Assembly: GCA_021208685.1 (NCBI GenBank)
Contig: JAJOJJ010000020.1
Span: 1-64,000, forward strand
Direction: 5' to 3'
DNA length: 64,000 nt
DNA from: Saccharospirillaceae bacterium
GTDB lineage: Bacteria > Pseudomonadota > Gammaproteobacteria > Pseudomonadales > Oceanobacteraceae
The notes beneath the pieces were generated by a model. It was not told the DNA's origin. It ran no database searches and worked only from the letters and a program-made list of their open reading frames with translations. Below, piece after piece: positions 5,356 through 11,753 of the stretch (positions are counted from its first letter, which is position 1; each line of letters starts with the position of its first letter). Made by a program: the position numbers and the translations under genes.

Positions 5356-5376
5356 ATGCGCATAATGTATGCGCAT
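5356..5376. promoter_or_regulatory. candidate CcdA(B) autoregulatory operator
   Basis: Two copies of the self-palindromic octamer ATGCGCAT occur at 5356-5363 and 5369-5376, 13 bases apart start to start, about 25 bases before the ccdA start codon. Type II antitoxins of the CcdA ribbon-helix-helix family bind repeated palindromes over their own promoter. Position and symmetry fit, but binding is inferred. Confidence 0.5.
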
Positions 5377-5401
5377 TATCTTTGTGTTTTTTGGATTGTG
5401 T

Positions 5402-5647
5402 ATGCAAGTCATATATGACACCTCAGCCCCGAAAAAACCAGCCAACGTCAGCATCAACAGCGACCTGCTGGCTCAGGCGCGGGCCTGTAAAATCAACCTG
5501 TCGGCAACGCTGGAACAGGCACTGGCCGATAAGGTCGCTCAGGTTCAGCGCGAACAGTGGCTTAAAGACAACCAGCAGGCGATCAATGGTTACAACCAGC
5601 TGGTGGACGAGCAGGGTGTATTCAGCGACGGCCTGAGAAGTTTCTGA
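5402..5647 (+). CDS. ccdA: type II antitoxin, CcdA family
   Basis: 81 residues. The N-terminal part (KKPANVSINSDLLAQARACK) has the strand-helix-helix pattern of CcdA DNA-binding domains. The C-terminal part (LKDNQQAINGYNQLVDEQG) matches the toxin-neutralising tail, ending in the usual FSDG-R-F signature. I chose the ATG at 5402 because it gives the normal CcdA length; an upstream in-frame ATG at 5369 lies inside the proposed operator. The stop codon overlaps the start of ccdB by one base (TGATG), the usual antitoxin-toxin coupling. Because the toxin gene carries a nonsense codon, the antitoxin may now act alone, for example protecting against CcdB from another source. Confidence 0.88.
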   Translation: MQVIYDTSAPKKPANVSINSDLLAQARACKINLSATLEQALADKVAQVQREQWLKDNQQAINGYNQLVDEQGVFSDGLRSF

Positions 5648-5961
5648 TGCAGTTTTATGTATACAGCAACACCAATCCCGCCAGTAAGGGGCTGTACCCC
5701 TATCTGCTGGATGTGCAGAACAGCCTTCTGGCCGACCTTAAAACCCGGCTGGTGATTCCGCTCACCGCACAGGCTAATTGCCGCTCTGGCGTTATCAGCA
5801 CACTGTGCCCGGTGTTTAACATTAACGGTGAACCTTTCGTTGCCCTGACTTAGCAGATGGCCGGTATTGAGTCACGCTTACTGGGGGCAGAGGTTGCCGA
5901 TTTATCGGCTTACCGGGCTGAGATTATTGCGGCAATCGATTTCGCGGTGGTGGGGATTTAA
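5647..5961 (+). pseudogene. ccdB: CcdB toxin gene interrupted by an in-frame amber codon
   Basis: The reading frame encodes a CcdB-like gyrase poison: start MQFYVYSNTNPASKGLYPYL, middle TRLVIPLTAQA, then FNINGEPFVALT. A TAG stops it at 5851-5853 (codon 69). The same frame continues without interruption to a TAA at 5959-5961, reading QMAGIESRLLGAEVADLSAY and ending DFAVVGI. That is the family C-terminus (compare the GEEVADL and final WGI of F-plasmid CcdB). The C-terminal residues of CcdB are needed to poison DNA gyrase, so the truncated product should be inactive unless the amber codon is suppressed. No frame change is needed; one base change explains the damage. Confidence 0.85.
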
Positions 5962-5974
5962 AGGTTTAAAAACT
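5881..5974 (+). repeat. left copy of ccdB 3'-end direct repeat
   Basis: This stretch, covering the last 25 codons of ccdB plus a few bases, recurs in the same orientation at 11671-11757. By eye the coding parts differ by about six substitutions and one single-base indel over 83 bases. An 8-base gap lies just after the stop codon. The two copies bracket the metallophosphoesterase and cytochrome genes. Confidence 0.85.
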
Positions 5975-6456
5975 GAAAAGGGATGTACCAGATTAGATAT
6001 CTCTCGGCTTTAATAGATTCGATAATCTGCTATTAGTGTGCATATGGAATAAGTGATTTTATGAAATATCGGTGATATTTGCACTGCACACTGAAGATTC
6101 TTCGAATGCTGTTAGCAGGAAGGAAAAATAGGCTTCACATAAATTGATTGTGCGGGTTCTGAATTTTAATTGGTTTTGGGTGGCTATTATAATTCAAAGC
6201 TTGAGAAGTCTTGTTCACCATCAGTTTTACTGTTCAAACGCCTGTATCACGAGACCTCATTTTTCTTACAGCTCTTATGGCGTTACCAAAATGCGGAGAT
6301 CTTCCGCTGAGTTGTGTAATGTTTTCGTCACCAGAATGTCACGTTATCTCGTTAAGGTCGCTGCTCCCGAATTCATGGCATTGATTATTAAGCCATTTTA
6401 GACGGTATTTCCTGGCAGCAGCCACTGACCTCACAATAAATCCTGGAAACTAAAAC
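5962..6456. other. AT-rich non-coding stretch inside the accessory island
   Basis: About 495 bases with no convincing gene. The longest open frame (85 codons from 6144) has no ribosome binding site and an unprotein-like composition. Visible structure is limited to a perfect 7-bp AT-rich hairpin at 6064-6080 (AAATATC, GGT loop, GATATTT) and the candidate Pho box near 6325. The base composition is distinctly lower in GC than the core genes on either side, consistent with acquired DNA. Confidence 0.6.
6325..6342 (+). promoter_or_regulatory. possible Pho box upstream of the secreted phosphoesterase
   Basis: TTCGTCAC and ATGTCAC place two GTCAC cores exactly 11 bases apart, the spacing of PhoB half-sites (consensus CTGTCAT repeats). 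It lies 115 bases before the start of a phosphoesterase gene. The match is partial (about 9 of 14 half-site positions), so this is a suggestion only. Confidence 0.3.
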
Positions 6457-9400
6457 ATGTTAACTATTAGAAATTTAGTTGGCCTGGCCTTGGCAATAAG
6501 CCTTGTTGGTCAGGCTGCTGCATTAGAGCGCCAAAGCTATGATATTTTGGCAGGAACTGATGATGCAGAGCAGTCTTTAGCCAATGGCGAAATGGATATC
6601 ACCAGTAGCGATTTAGAAATTGTCGATGAAAGCGATAATCAGCTGGTTGCTTTACGTTTTACTGGTATCAACCTGAAGCCCGGTGAAAACGTCGAACGGG
6701 CTTATATTCAGTTCGCCACCGATGAACCGAAGAAAAGCAAGGGAGAGATTGCCATTCAGATTGCCGTAGAAGACAGCGTCAATCCGGCAACCTATGCCGA
6801 TGAAATCAATAATTTAAGTAACCGACCACTCATGCCTGCTACGATCAGCTGGGCTAGTGAGCAAGCCTGGGAAAACGAACATTCCAGTGAGAAAACGCCC
6901 GATTTAGCCGAACTTATTAACCAGTTAACCCATCGTGATGACTGGCAGCAAGGCTCTGCTATTTCGTTTATTTTCAGTGGAGCAGGCACACGTACTGCTG
7001 AGTCTTTTGAAGGCTCACAAAAGCATACCGACGGTCTGACAGATTTGGCGCCTAAGCTGATTATCGAAATCGCCAAAACAGCCACCATTGCGGTGCAATC
7101 ATCGGTGGATGACGCCGAGGAAGATGAAGCCGGTAGCGTGGATCTGACCAGTTCTGATCTTGAACTCGTCATGGACGGCAGCGCTAAACAAACCATTGGC
7201 TTGCGCTTCGCTTCCGCTGGCCTTCCCGCCGGTGCCGAAATTCGTTCGGCCTATTTGCAATTTACCGTTGATGAGGTAAACGACGACGACAACCTGCCTG
7301 GTGAGCTGATCATTAAGGCAATAGCGGGGGATACACAAGAGTTTGCGGATGCGCCATTTGATATCACCGCGCGCGAAACGCTGGTACCTCAGGTGACCTG
7401 GAATAATATCAGTGAGTGGCGTGAGAAAGACGCTGCCGGTGAGGATCAGCGCTCGCCGGATATCAGTGAATTAGTACAAGCATTGGTAAATCAACCAGGC
7501 TGGAATTCAAAAAGCGCAGTTGGTTTTGCGATTTCAGGCACCGGTAAGCGCGTTGCCGAATCCGTTGATGGCAGTGCTGCACCAGAGCTGGTGGTTACCT
7601 ATGTTGGTGAAGCCAAAATTGCCCAAGTCGATAAAATCCGCGTTGCCTGGAATAGCGACCCTGCTTCCACCGCAACTATCGGCTGGAATAAGCAAGCCAG
7701 TGGTGATACCTATGTTGCGTATCAGCAGTACTCGCCAGAGCAGGGCTGTGTAGAGGATCTAAGCCAGTACAACCAGCAGGCGCAGGTGGACCGTGCCATA
7801 GACTACCGTGGTATGAACAATGAATTCGTTGAGCTTACCAATCTTGCAGCCGACACGTCGTATCGCTTTGTTGTGGTACACAATGGCATTGCAAGTAGTT
7901 GTAGCTGGTTCAAAACAGCGCCAGCTACGCCTAAGCCTTTTACATTTATTTCCGGTGGTGATACCAAAAGTTCGGGTAATGCGCTGACGGTTGGCCGCTG
8001 GTCAAACGAAATGGTGGCAAAATTGCGGCCGCTGTTTGTGCTATTCACAGGCGATTTTAACTCTGATGACGGAACGAACGACGCTTATTGGAAAACCTGG
8101 CTAAACGACTGGAGCGCATTAACCAGGTCAGAAGATGGCCGTGTATATCCAATCATTGCTGTGCATGGAAACCATGAAGATGGCGATATGGAAATGCTCA
8201 GCAAACTGTTTGGCGCGGGTAATTCAGATGCTCAGCAAGAAAAAGCTTACACCTACAATCGTTTCCAAATTGCTGGCGACTTATTCAGCCTGTATACGCT
8301 TAACACTCAGCTTTTCTTGCAAGGGTTAGGTGCGGCACATGAGCGTCAGATTAGTTGGTTAGACGAGCAGTTAGCGCAAGATTCTTCCGAGTTCATTGCT
8401 GCTGGCTATCACAAGCCAATTCGCCCTCATACGCTCAGCAAATCAGAAAACGACCATCTGTTGCCATGGGCTGCGCTATTTGAGAAGTATGGCGTTGATG
8501 TTGCGTTTGAAAGTGATACCCACAACCATAAAATCACATATCCGATCGTGCTGGATGAAAACGGCGCCATGGGCTTTAAGCGCGATGACCAAAACGGGGT
8601 TGTCTACGTTGGTGAGGGAAGTTGGGGAGCTACGCCACGCGATAATAATGACAACAAAGTATGGACGCTCGACAGCGATGCCATGAACCAAATTAAATGG
8701 AACCAAGTGTTCCCGGCAAGTGGTAACGAACCGGCCAAATGGGAGATGCGGACTGTTGAAATCGGACGTTACATTAACGGTGAGCTGGTAAACCGATTAG
8801 AAGGGGTTGCAGCACTTACTGAGGAGAATATCTTCTCGCCACCAGTCGGCATAACGCTTTACCAGACACCGGTTTATGGAGAGGTAATCACATTGCCTTG
8901 GCAAACCGTTCAGGGTGATGTACCTAGCTTTACCTGGCAACCAATTGCTCAGGCGGCTTACTACAGCATTACTCTAAGCTGGCCTGAACTGAATGTAGAT
9001 GCCCGTGAGCTGGAATTACAACGTAACGACGGCAGCGGCTGGCAGCTGGTCAGTTCAACCATCACTCCGCAAACGACCAGCATAGTCGACGACAAGCTAC
9101 AAGACGGCACCGAATACCAGTACCGCTTGCGAGCTATCAACGCTTTTGGTGGTTCGGAATGGCAAACCTTTACAGTAAGCACATTAAAAGATGAGCGTTT
9201 ATCTGCGTCGCTGATACATGGAGTAAACGGCTACGAAGGTGGCGCGTTAAACGTATTGGTAGAGCAAAATGCCGATGCAACTTTTGGCAATAATGATCTT
9301 CTGGACAACACCTGGGTCGCCTTTGACGGTGCAACCAGTGACTACGCTGCCAGCGGCTCTGGTGACACTCAAGGCTTGCTGAAATTTGCAGATCTGGAAA

Positions 9401-9987
9401 CCACGATGAATCTGCCAGAGAATGCCGTGATCGATGAAGCACGTCTTCGCTTTTTCACCGGTGGTTCGAGCACGGGCCCAATTGTATTCAGCCAAATGCT
9501 GCAAGATTGGGATCCGGCAACCGTAACCTGGAATAGCCTGACTAATGGCTTGCAACTCAACGGTATTGAAGCCGTTGAGCAACCTGTCGCGATTATTGCC
9601 AATGTTGATAGTGATGAGTACATCTATGTTGATGTAACGGCCTCGTTGCAAAGCTGGTTTGCTGGCCAGCCAAACTATGGCTGGGCCATTATCAACCAGT
9701 CCACAGATGGCTGGGACATTGTGGGTAATGGTTATGAAAACGCCGACAAGCCAGAAGACAAAGCTAAGTATCGTGTTCAGTTAGAAGTGTTCTACAGCGT
9801 GCCGCAAACGGAAACTCCTGACGTGCCTGTCAACCCCGGCATTCCTGAGGCACCGGGCAATCCAGATCCAGGAACGGACACTCCAAATCAGGAGTCGCCA
9901 TCAGATGGCAAAAAGGGTGGTGCATTGAGTCCATGGATGCTGCTGAGCTTAATGCTTGGACTGACATTGGTACGACGCCGCGTATGA
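6457..9987 (+). CDS. giant secreted metallophosphoesterase with GlyGly-CTERM sorting tail
   Basis: 1176 residues. Order: signal peptide (to about 22); two tandem copies of a ~170-residue domain (about 25-190 and 205-375), each with a TSSDLE motif and a later AESF/VDGS end; a fibronectin/purple-acid-phosphatase-like N-domain (about 385-490); a calcineurin-like phosphoesterase core with SGGDTK (~499), FTGDFNSDDG (~531), GNHED (~570), GYHKPIRP (~649) and SDTHNHK (~687); a fibronectin-like stretch; a DNRLRE-type beta domain (about 920-1110); a Pro/Asp linker; and the tail KKGGALSPWMLLSLMLGLTL followed by VRRR. That tail is the GlyGly-CTERM signal processed by rhombosortase, usually after type II secretion. 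Metal-ligand motifs look intact, so phosphatase, phosphodiesterase or nucleotidase activity is likely; substrate unknown. Its stop overlaps the next start. Confidence 0.85.
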   Translation: MLTIRNLVGLALAISLVGQAAALERQSYDILAGTDDAEQSLANGEMDITSSDLEIVDESDNQLVALRFTGINLKPGENVERAYIQFATDEPKKSKGEIAIQIAVEDSVNPATYADEINNLSNRPLMPATISWASEQAWENEHSSEKTPDLAELINQLTHRDDWQQGSAISFIFSGAGTRTAESFEGSQKHTDGLTDLAPKLIIEIAKTATIAVQSSVDDAEEDEAGSVDLTSSDLELVMDGSAKQTIGLRFASAGLPAGAEIRSAYLQFTVDEVNDDDNLPGELIIKAIAGDTQEFADAPFDITARETLVPQVTWNNISEWREKDAAGEDQRSPDISELVQALVNQPGWNSKSAVGFAISGTGKRVAESVDGSAAPELVVTYVGEAKIAQVDKIRVAWNSDPASTATIGWNKQASGDTYVAYQQYSPEQGCVEDLSQYNQQAQVDRAIDYRGMNNEFVELTNLAADTSYRFVVVHNGIASSCSWFKTAPATPKPFTFISGGDTKSSGNALTVGRWSNEMVAKLRPLFVLFTGDFNSDDGTNDAYWKTWLNDWSALTRSEDGRVYPIIAVHGNHEDGDMEMLSKLFGAGNSDAQQEKAYTYNRFQIAGDLFSLYTLNTQLFLQGLGAAHERQISWLDEQLAQDSSEFIAAGYHKPIRPHTLSKSENDHLLPWAALFEKYGVDVAFESDTHNHKITYPIVLDENGAMGFKRDDQNGVVYVGEGSWGATPRDNNDNKVWTLDSDAMNQIKWNQVFPASGNEPAKWEMRTVEIGRYINGELVNRLEGVAALTEENIFSPPVGITLYQTPVYGEVITLPWQTVQGDVPSFTWQPIAQAAYYSITLSWPELNVDARELELQRNDGSGWQLVSSTITPQTTSIVDDKLQDGTEYQYRLRAINAFGGSEWQTFTVSTLKDERLSASLIHGVNGYEGGALNVLVEQNADATFGNNDLLDNTWVAFDGATSDYAASGSGDTQGLLKFADLETTMNLPENAVIDEARLRFFTGGSSTGPIVFSQMLQDWDPATVTWNSLTNGLQLNGIEAVEQPVAIIANVDSDEYIYVDVTASLQSWFAGQPNYGWAIINQSTDGWDIVGNGYENADKPEDKAKYRVQLEVFYSVPQTETPDVPVNPGIPEAPGNPDPGTDTPNQESPSDGKKGGALSPWMLLSLMLGLTLVRRRV

Positions 9988-11600
9988 CCGCTCTCCACAC
10001 TCAGGGCCGCCTGGCGGCCCTGTATTCAACGTATACGCAATCAAATTTTCGCAAAAGTGCATTAATGCCCATGCTGCATTGGGTGTGTCTGCCAAGTTTT
10101 GTTTTATTGCTAATCAGTGGCTTACGTTTGGCGAACGACCATCAGGGTGGCTGGTATTCAGGTCTGGCGGGTCTGCTGCCTCAAGGTCAGGTATTGCTCT
10201 GGCATGTCATTGGCGCCATTCCGTTGTTATTAGTGACTGTGGTTTACAGTTTGCACATCATCAAACGCCGCAAGCTGCCGATGACTAAAAAAGGCCATGC
10301 GTGGCTGTACTTGTTGCTGGCAACTTCGTTATTCGTGTTGGTGGTGACCGGAGTAGGACAATGGTTTGCGTTATTTCCCGGTGAGCACTGGCACCGTTAT
10401 GCGGTCTGGGCCATGGTTGCGTTTGTTGTTCTGCACCCTCTATTGCACACCTTACAAGGTGGCTGGCGACGCTGGTTGGTAAGCTTTAAGCTCAAGCGCT
10501 GGTCGGTATTTTTATTACCCCTGCTGGCCATTGCCGTTGTAGTGACCACCGTTCCCAAAACCCAGCCATTGCAGGTGTTAAACAGCCCGCAAGAACCAAT
10601 ACTGGATGGAGAGCTAGACGATCTGGTTTGGCAGCAAGCGTCCATTCAATCGGTGCTGACCCGACATGGCGCCAACTTCCCCAACGGGACATCACGGGTG
10701 TGGCTGCAAGCAGCCTCAGATGGCAAGTACTTATATCTGGCCGCTAAATGGGAAGACCCCACCCGAAGTCAACAGCACCTGCCACTGGTGAAAACCCTGA
10801 GAGGCTGGCAAGTGCAGCAAACGGCATTCTTGCAGGCTGATGAAAATCAGTTTTACGAAGATAAATTTGCCGTCATGCTGGCTCCCAAAGACCCGCTGTC
10901 TGCCATCAAGTCCGTGTATTTGGGACCGCAACCACTGGCCGACAAACCAGCACCCAATAATCAACGTGGCTTTCATATCAGTGATGGCCAGCTGCTTGAT
11001 ATCTGGCACTGGAAGTCAGTACGGGGCCAGGGGCAGGCGGACGACAATCACTTTACCAAAGCGGCCGATACGTACTTACCTATAGAACAGCCAAGTGACG
11101 GTCACCCGCGTGCGCCGCAACGCTATGCCGCAGGTTACAAAAAAGATCGGCCAATGACCTGGTCAGGCTATGAGCTTAATTGGGAATATTTCAGTACCGA
11201 CTACACCCAGCCAAGGCGGATTCCGAATGAAATGCAAGACATTGCGGCAATTCAAGGCGGCCTGAACAGCGCTCAACACGCGGGTGACTGGAGCATTCAC
11301 TGGAGTGCGACGGAGCCTTACATTGCCGAACACGATGATATGCGGATAGGTACTGTTTTGCCTGGTGTCATTCACAAGCGTCCACTCAGTGGCGACAGGG
11401 GCGATGTACAAGCTGCCGGGCAATGGAAAGATGGATATTGGCAGCTGGAGCTTAAGCGCGCGCTTAACACTGGCTCAGCTCATGATGTGGCAATAGAAAA
11501 CGGGACTCTCATTTGGGTGGCAGCATTTAACCACAGTCAAACCAGGCATACTTATCATTTACGACCATTGAAGCTGTTGTTCCAGGACGCTGCTGAATAA
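9984..11600 (+). CDS. b561-type cytochrome fused to an ethylbenzene-dehydrogenase-like haem domain
   Basis: 538 residues from the ATG at 9984, which overlaps the previous TGA (ATGA). A longer frame reaches back into the phosphoesterase gene and is unlikely. Residues 29-157 form about four membrane helices with histidines placed as possible haem b ligands (His32, His74, His91, His151, His155). A fifth helix lies at about 172-190. The rest resembles the haem-binding gamma-subunit domain of ethylbenzene/DMSO-type dehydrogenases (PF09459): PILDGELDDLVWQQAS, YLYLAAKWEDPTRSQ, FYEDKFAVMLAP, LLDIWHWKS. Predicted role: moving electrons between the quinone pool and a periplasmic or extracellular partner. 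The partner is unknown; coupling to the secreted phosphoesterase gene suggests a shared task. Confidence 0.75.
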   Translation: MTALHTQGRLAALYSTYTQSNFRKSALMPMLHWVCLPSFVLLLISGLRLANDHQGGWYSGLAGLLPQGQVLLWHVIGAIPLLLVTVVYSLHIIKRRKLPMTKKGHAWLYLLLATSLFVLVVTGVGQWFALFPGEHWHRYAVWAMVAFVVLHPLLHTLQGGWRRWLVSFKLKRWSVFLLPLLAIAVVVTTVPKTQPLQVLNSPQEPILDGELDDLVWQQASIQSVLTRHGANFPNGTSRVWLQAASDGKYLYLAAKWEDPTRSQQHLPLVKTLRGWQVQQTAFLQADENQFYEDKFAVMLAPKDPLSAIKSVYLGPQPLADKPAPNNQRGFHISDGQLLDIWHWKSVRGQGQADDNHFTKAADTYLPIEQPSDGHPRAPQRYAAGYKKDRPMTWSGYELNWEYFSTDYTQPRRIPNEMQDIAAIQGGLNSAQHAGDWSIHWSATEPYIAEHDDMRIGTVLPGVIHKRPLSGDRGDVQAAGQWKDGYWQLELKRALNTGSAHDVAIENGTLIWVAAFNHSQTRHTYHLRPLKLLFQDAAE

Positions 11601-11670: not shown

Positions 11671-11753
11671 CTGGGGGGCAGAGGTTGCCGATTTATCGGC
11701 TTACCGGACTGATTTTATTGCGGCAATCGATTTTGCAGAGGTGGGGATTTAAA
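11671..11753 (+). pseudogene. orphan ccdB 3' end (right copy of direct repeat)
   Basis: Reads GAEVADLSAY then RTDFIAAIDFAEVGI and stop, clearly a CcdB C-terminus. The frame before it (KALPGWIYCAGW) has no CcdB character, so homology begins abruptly at about 11671. Compared with the left copy, the protein differs at four positions (A/T, E/D, I/F, V/E), changes that keep a plausible CcdB tail. It is therefore more likely the relic of a separate ccdB allele than a recent duplication. Confidence 0.75.

Follow-up and report, generated by a model that had tools for sequence, protein, structure and literature searches.

An exported phosphoesterase and a membrane b561–EB_dh cytochrome inherited together: a candidate bacterial phosphate-starvation module

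The DNA considered here (the window) is a 64,000-nucleotide stretch of contig JAJOJJ010000020.1 from a Saccharospirillaceae bacterium, and it encodes an exported metallophosphoesterase (MPE) whose gene overlaps that of a membrane cytochrome, in which a b561-type part is fused to an EB_dh haem-type domain. The phosphoesterase and cytochrome genes are adjacent, co-occur across genomes, and have mirrored trees, and because this linkage is conserved across genomes, we regard the two proteins as almost certainly one functional unit. The unit probably works in phosphorus acquisition. More tentatively, we propose a surface module of phosphate starvation in which electron export by the cytochrome may aid phosphoester hydrolysis, most likely via Fe(III) reduction. 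The two genes and their domains are as follows:

6457–9987 (+): MPE gene, encoding an exported metallophosphoesterase of 1176 aa that resembles purple acid phosphatases (PAPs), with an N-terminal signal peptide (by eye)
7630–7917 (+): Pur_ac_phosph_N (PF16656) in the MPE, residues 392–487, 43.2 bits, cut-off 30 (Pfam)
7975–8526 (+): Metallophos, the calcineurin-like catalytic domain (PF00149) of the MPE, residues 507–690, 34.3 bits, cut-off 21.5
8953–9165 (+): fn3 (PF00041) in the MPE, residues 833–903, 27 bits, cut-off 25
9268–9753 (+): CBM96 (PF24517) in the MPE, residues 938–1099, 39 bits, cut-off 26
9916–9984 (+): C-terminal tail of the MPE, Gly-Gly, hydrophobic and then Arg-rich, of rhombosortase-type form; TIGR03501 10.5 bits, under the cut-off of 15.5
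9984–11600 (+): gene of the membrane cytochrome (b561–EB_dh), 538 aa; its start codon and the stop codon (TGA) of the MPE gene overlap as ATGA
9984–10556 (+): b561 part (Ni_hydr_CYTB), Pfam match at residues 26–163, 32.8 bits, cut-off 30.1; five membrane segments predicted by hydropathy
10626–11558 (+): EB_dh haem-type domain (PF09459), residues 215–525, 108.3 bits, cut-off 33.3

Because our genome searches score only a few first-look candidates in each genome, an absence is approximate and some copies may have been missed. In a draw of 390 genomes of the order, the cytochrome profile matches 24, of which 17 hold a full-length b561–EB_dh protein and 7 an EB_dh-like or partial match only. The MPE core, searched in the same draw at E <= 1e-20, matches 16 genomes, all of them among the 17 with the cytochrome, and in the remaining cytochrome genome the MPE gene is truncated by a contig end. 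This co-occurrence spans 10 genera, with hypergeometric probabilities of 2e-27 by genome and 2e-14 by genus, both of which ignore phylogeny. With one further genome (G018), the copy set comprises 19 full-length cytochrome genes in 18 genomes, and 16 of these copies have an MPE in the fetched neighbourhood with at most one intervening gene (one of these MPEs is cut by a contig end). In the others, the MPE lies at a distance on the same contig, about 6 kb away in G565 and about 10 kb in G749, or on another contig (G724). Gene order is variable among loci, the phosphoesterase standing first, last, divergent or convergent.

A search of 142 relatives found the cytochrome in 4, the source genome included. 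With the window MPE as the query, 11 of the 142 match, the catalytic part being matched only in the source genome, G018 and G111; in the fourth cytochrome genome, G056, the start of an MPE lies at a contig end. A draw of 369 genomes of the class gave, with the cytochrome profile, only the source genome and one EB_dh-only protein (G353), and plasmid searches returned one cytochrome relative and, with the G111 MPE as the query, no MPE.

The trees tell of the same association. For 18 pairs (G056 excluded, and one of the two G018 MPEs used), the distance matrices of the MPE and cytochrome trees correlate at r = 0.914, a value partly raised by the shared descent of the genomes, and 0 of 5000 label permutations reached one as high. 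A further pair, diverged from that of the window, lies on contig 46 of the source genome, with an Lcl_C gene between its cytochrome and phosphoesterase. Exchanging the partners of only these two source-genome pairs lowers r to 0.51, and each copy has therefore kept its own partner. The window pair clusters near those of G596, G738, G565 and G749 in both trees.

The window copy also lies within a pair of direct repeats of 80 nucleotides:

5883–5962 (+): left copy of the repeat flanking the module, at the 3' end of a ccdB-like gene (by eye)
11674–11753 (+): right copy, 93% identical to the left

In G003 and G002, which are congeners, the window sequences on either side of the module align to one repeat copy, and the fetched stretches contain no match to the module at that site. 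Either the source gained a 5.7-kb block, or the congeners lost it through recombination between the repeats; on gain and loss alike, the two genes, without Lcl_C, are one unit. The left flank holds, at 5366–5961, a ccdA-like gene and then a ccdB-like frame, interrupted by a stop codon near 5851 (both named by eye). About 4 kb upstream of the module, at 229–2091 on the minus strand, is a gene for a lipoprotein-like choice-of-anchor I protein (PF22494, 268 bits).

A first-pass annotation of this DNA had already called the ATGA overlap, the exported metallophosphoesterase, and a b-type cytochrome with four to five helices and a periplasmic haem-type domain. All three calls are borne out: the ATG at 9984 lies within the MPE stop, Pur_ac_phosph_N and Metallophos score over cut-off in a protein with a signal peptide recognisable by eye, and five segments accompany Ni_hydr_CYTB and EB_dh matches over cut-off. 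Its rhombosortase-type tail stands in part, in that the form is present and a rhombosortase is encoded elsewhere in the source genome (146.9 bits, cut-off 84), but the TIGR03501 score falls short; a GlyGly_CTERM search of the source genome was uninformative, with no match there and none in the controls. Conserved adjacency, co-occurrence and mirrored trees lend strong support to the proposal that phosphoesterase and b561/EB_dh cytochrome belong to a single system. Homologues that are mostly unlinked, which the annotation had named as a sign to the contrary, did not occur in the order genomes searched, but in other classes the cytochrome has a different partner. A published pathway for both proteins, the other such sign, was not found in the literature searches made, nor is the pair described in the full-text searches joining these families, whose coverage stops short of most subscription papers and bioRxiv preprints.

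In the cytochrome, H32, H74, H137 and H151, all in or beside membrane segments, are invariant in the 21 aligned sequences, as are H331, H522 and H525 together with K270 and K294 of the EB_dh domain. No Met of that domain is conserved in at least 90% of the 21 sequences; the haem b ligands of EbdC are Met and Lys. The loops on the presumed cytoplasmic side are positively charged, which places the EB_dh domain in the periplasm. A profile search with this domain finds NxrC at 2.8e-11 and, weakly, EbdC at 0.21, and the match there to a formate dehydrogenase b subunit is not significant (E 0.45). The cytochrome model, built from a three-row alignment, is poor, with a mean predicted local distance difference test (pLDDT) score of 47, and we quote the four hits that Foldseek gave for it at E <= 0.001 (two to NxrC, one each to EbdC and a CBM9) only because the sequence-profile search also found NxrC and, weakly, EbdC. 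The predicted b561–EB_dh cytochrome can hardly be other than an electron carrier across the inner membrane.

Relatives of the cytochrome outside the class keep other company. In a draw of 279 genomes across the phylum, 13 match the cytochrome (the source, three outside the class with full-length proteins, and nine with EB_dh-only or partial ones), and the MPE core has a match in the source genome only. A scan of genome contigs gave three loci, of which L038 is counted here and L039 and L040, matched in the EB_dh part only, are not. At all five full-length loci examined outside the class (L038, L091, L129, L130 and L145), a FAD/2Fe-2S, ferredoxin-reductase-like gene adjoins the cytochrome; it was identified by Pfam at L038 and L130 and by phmmer with the L038 protein at L091 (annotated as a 2Fe-2S protein), L129 and L145. 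Such a NAD-binding/FAD/2Fe-2S reductase beside the extra-class relatives suggests outward electron flow. Among ten loci with short EB_dh proteins that lack b561 (L085–L090 and L146–L149), five have an adjoining FRE-type ferric reductase by Pfam (L086, L088, L090, L146 and L147); CxxxCH-type motifs occur in four aligned short proteins, and CxxCH in none of nine. As far as gene neighbourhoods tell, the EB_dh domain is repeatedly wired to reductases.

We infer haem binding, the electron acceptor and the substrate of the module, and the following sequence of events would accommodate them. Quinol would likely feed the b561 part at its two b haems, and from there the electron would likely pass to the EB_dh haem at the periplasmic face, as in eukaryotic CYBDOM proteins. 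Under phosphate limitation, this outward flow would support the exported enzyme, most likely through reduction of Fe(III), a strong binder of phosphate and phosphoesters, which would release both substrate and product for hydrolysis and uptake. Three things incline us, with reserve, towards Fe(III) as the acceptor: Arabidopsis HYP1 and CRR offer a parallel, ferric reductases stand beside sister EB_dh genes, and L077 and L078 have genes for a TonB receptor and PepSY_TM next to the module.

A site upstream of the MPE gene bears on phosphate control:

6325–6342 (+): Pho-box-like site of two 7-base half-sites with an 11-base period, 132 bases upstream of the MPE start, score 20.0 of 26

A match to the Pho-box consensus is not in itself proof. 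The scan was run with random-position controls, then with promoter controls on both strands, and then, in the version quoted here, on one strand over the 200 bases upstream. Scores of at least 19.5 occur in 7 of 20 MPE promoters vs 5 of 93 control promoters, taken from other intergenic regions of these loci (Mann–Whitney 3.3e-4), in a test that counts related genomes, several of one genus, and with a threshold set after the scores had been seen. Base composition is equal in the MPE and control promoters, genus means average 17.9 and 15.9, respectively, and motifs as good as the Pho box numbered 1 in 1000 after column shuffling and 8 in 1000 after shuffling that preserved the tandem.

Besides these limits of the Pho-box test, several points weigh against the proposed phosphate-starvation module and its Fe(III) step. 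The earlier both-strand version of the scan, over 15 genes with promoter controls, gave p = 0.012 only; EB_dh promoters are not enriched in Pho-box-like sites (p = 0.17); and MPE promoters are not enriched in Fur boxes (p = 0.2), which leaves iron control unsupported. The TonB and PepSY_TM neighbours are confined to two loci, both of one genus. Cytochrome bd genes lie a few genes from the module in L072 (Pfam) and L076–L078 (by eye), again in one genus, and further redox genes stand near single loci, namely an iron-containing alcohol dehydrogenase (L071), a Rieske ring-hydroxylase (L037) and a P450 (L036). In G722, a congener of G738, the b561–EB_dh frame stops early and no MPE is matched, and G720 shows only a partial, different EB_dh match. 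Phosphatase activity, haem binding, electron transfer and the reduction of Fe(III) are all read from sequence comparison. Lastly, the Fe(III) of PhoD and PhoX is reported to be redox-inactive, though dithionite reduces that of PhoD (PMC4223295). The PhoD family is not among the Pfam matches of the window pair up to E = 1.

The main rival explanation, which we consider unlikely, is reductive activation, with the cytochrome keeping the dinuclear metal centre of the MPE (or its cysteines) in an active, reduced state. Fe(III)–Fe(II) PAPs require a one-electron reduced centre, and one-to-one co-inheritance with mirrored trees would suit a dedicated partner. Most calcineurin-type metal-ligand motifs are, moreover, retained in the catalytic domain: GGD[TS], GD[FY], GNHE and YH, with ESD[TS]HxxK last, are found in the MPE core of all 16 sequences, and the corresponding positions in the window MPE are D502, D533, N572, H652, D687 and H689 (by motif alignment, the last motif via the PAP alignment). 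The best PDB relative of the MPE is the purple acid phosphatase 6git, which we take to be the lupin enzyme. Yet the Fe(III)-ligating Tyr of GDxxY is present in 0 of the 16 MPEs, which have GD[FY]xx in its place, and the two His of GHxH are not both kept, S-D-[TS]-H standing there in all 16; D687 of the window MPE aligns with the first of these His in the 6git alignment. The absence of the purple Tyr is why we do not file the MPE as a PAP, and with the Asp at the first His it makes a PAP-type diiron centre uncertain. The MPE is also exported, this copy perhaps to the cell surface and so away from the inner-membrane cytochrome. Elsewhere in the protein, the region matched by CBM96 also matches the DNRLRE beta domain (NCBIfam NF033679, 60.2 bits, cut-off 34), and residues 29–384 hold two N-terminal repeats that match repeated domains of large proteins in genomes without the module. 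A structure model of the MPE core alone had a mean pLDDT of 31 and was not used.

Somewhat less likely still is a part in envelope protection or maturation, in which the cytochrome, together with Lcl_C, would supply the reducing power to repair disulfides, quench radicals or control the quality of the MPE on export. An Lcl_C-type profile match occurs at 15 of the 19 copies, being absent from the window, L079, L080 and L081, and Pfam confirmed it in the three proteins tested; where present, the protein is a putative periplasmic partner that appears by eye to be membrane-anchored. The four invariant Cys common to the Lcl_C proteins of four loci speak for such a part, as does the precedent of LcoA–BcnA, a described pair of a b561 and a secreted lipocalin (PMC9113575). 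The cytochrome's partner here is, however, a single phosphoesterase family and not a variety of secreted proteins, and only two Cys of the MPE core are nearly invariant. An FGE-like maturase role for Lcl_C was considered and dropped.

That the MPE frees an alcohol or a reduced aromatic compound, and that the cytochrome carries the electrons of its oxidation inward, seems to us very unlikely. EB_dh-type subunits do serve molybdenum dehydrogenases (ethylbenzene dehydrogenase is one) as electron acceptors, and redox enzymes are encoded near the single loci L071, L037 and L036; none of these enzymes recurs at other loci, however, as far as neighbours were read, and the reductases beside the extra-class relatives suggest flow in the outward direction. 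Nothing supports the suggestion of the first-pass annotation that the cytochrome oxidises the dephosphorylated product. The weakest alternative, already disfavoured, is that no functional tie exists and that the genes hitchhike on a mobile island or merely share ancestry, as the direct repeats and the patchy distribution might suggest, but the genes co-occur in 10 genera and stand in several orders, and the two paralogous pairs of the source genome have stayed faithful to their partners, all of which renders this highly improbable.

Sister loci add nuclease and sorting genes to the pair. A C-terminal EEP nuclease fusion is found in 4 of 15 MPEs scanned (G596, G738, G565 and G749), the window MPE and ten others having none; these fusions count in favour of a role in phosphorus acquisition. 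At L079, a rhombosortase gene (10470–11063; 128.7 bits, cut-off 84) directly follows the cytochrome gene, and an adjacent gene encodes a 1761-aa phosphoesterase–PKD–EEP nuclease fusion that ends, judged by eye, in a CTERM-like tail. The neighbourhood of L080 (962–5435 and 10523–12202) includes a 5'-nucleotidase-type protein and two EEP nuclease genes, the product of one having a GlyGly-CTERM over cut-off.

If the proposed phosphate-starvation module is real, bacteria would couple phosphorus scavenging to membrane electron export, in convergence with the CYBDOM ferric reductases that plants employ under low phosphorus. It would also provide a genetic handle on the microbial release of iron-bound phosphorus, and the fused b561–EB_dh cytochrome, which has different partners in different bacterial classes, would gain a role. 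Set beside known systems, the module compares as follows:

(i) Purple acid phosphatases share with the MPE the succession of a PAP N-domain and a calcineurin-like domain. The MPE, unlike them, is without the purple Tyr and has Asp for the first His of GHxH.

(ii) EbdC and NxrC, the haem subunits of type II dimethyl sulfoxide (DMSO)-reductase-family enzymes, share the EB_dh domain, with a profile and fold match to 7b04_C and a weaker one to 2ivf_C. The window cytochrome differs in being fused to its own membrane b561 and in having no conserved Met, and no molybdenum subunit was noticed near it.

(iii) Extracellular nucleases of the ExeM/NucH type share the EEP nuclease domain that is fused to four sister MPEs, whereas the window MPE is without it. 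We know of no cytochrome partner of ExeM.

(iv) LcoA–BcnA likewise links a b561 gene to the gene of a secreted protein. The partner protein is a different one, and an EB_dh fusion goes unmentioned for LcoA in the part of the source that is accessible (PMC9113575).

(v) CYBDOM proteins, such as Arabidopsis HYP1 and CRR, likewise carry, fused to a b561 in the membrane, a beta-sandwich haem domain that faces outward, whereas the window protein joins a bacterial Ni_hydr_CYTB b561 to an EB_dh domain and is paired with a phosphoesterase. The domain order of CYBDOM is reversed relative to the window cytochrome, which has no match up to E = 1 to PF03188 or PF03351, presumably the b561 and DOMON families, respectively; from its domains, it reads as a CYBDOM analogue and not a member. 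HYP1 is reported to be a DOMON and b561 ferric reductase that is critical under low phosphorus, is up-regulated by it, and reduces ferric and cupric substrates (PMC10784544), and HYP1 and CRR are both DOMON and b561 proteins of iron and low-phosphorus responses (PMC10784544, PMC10784552). By analogy, and as a more doubtful step than the choice of Fe(III) as the acceptor, the cytochrome–phosphoesterase(–Lcl_C) machine may be a counterpart of these plant low-phosphorus ferric reductases, one that would both reduce and hydrolyse Fe(III)-bound organic phosphate.

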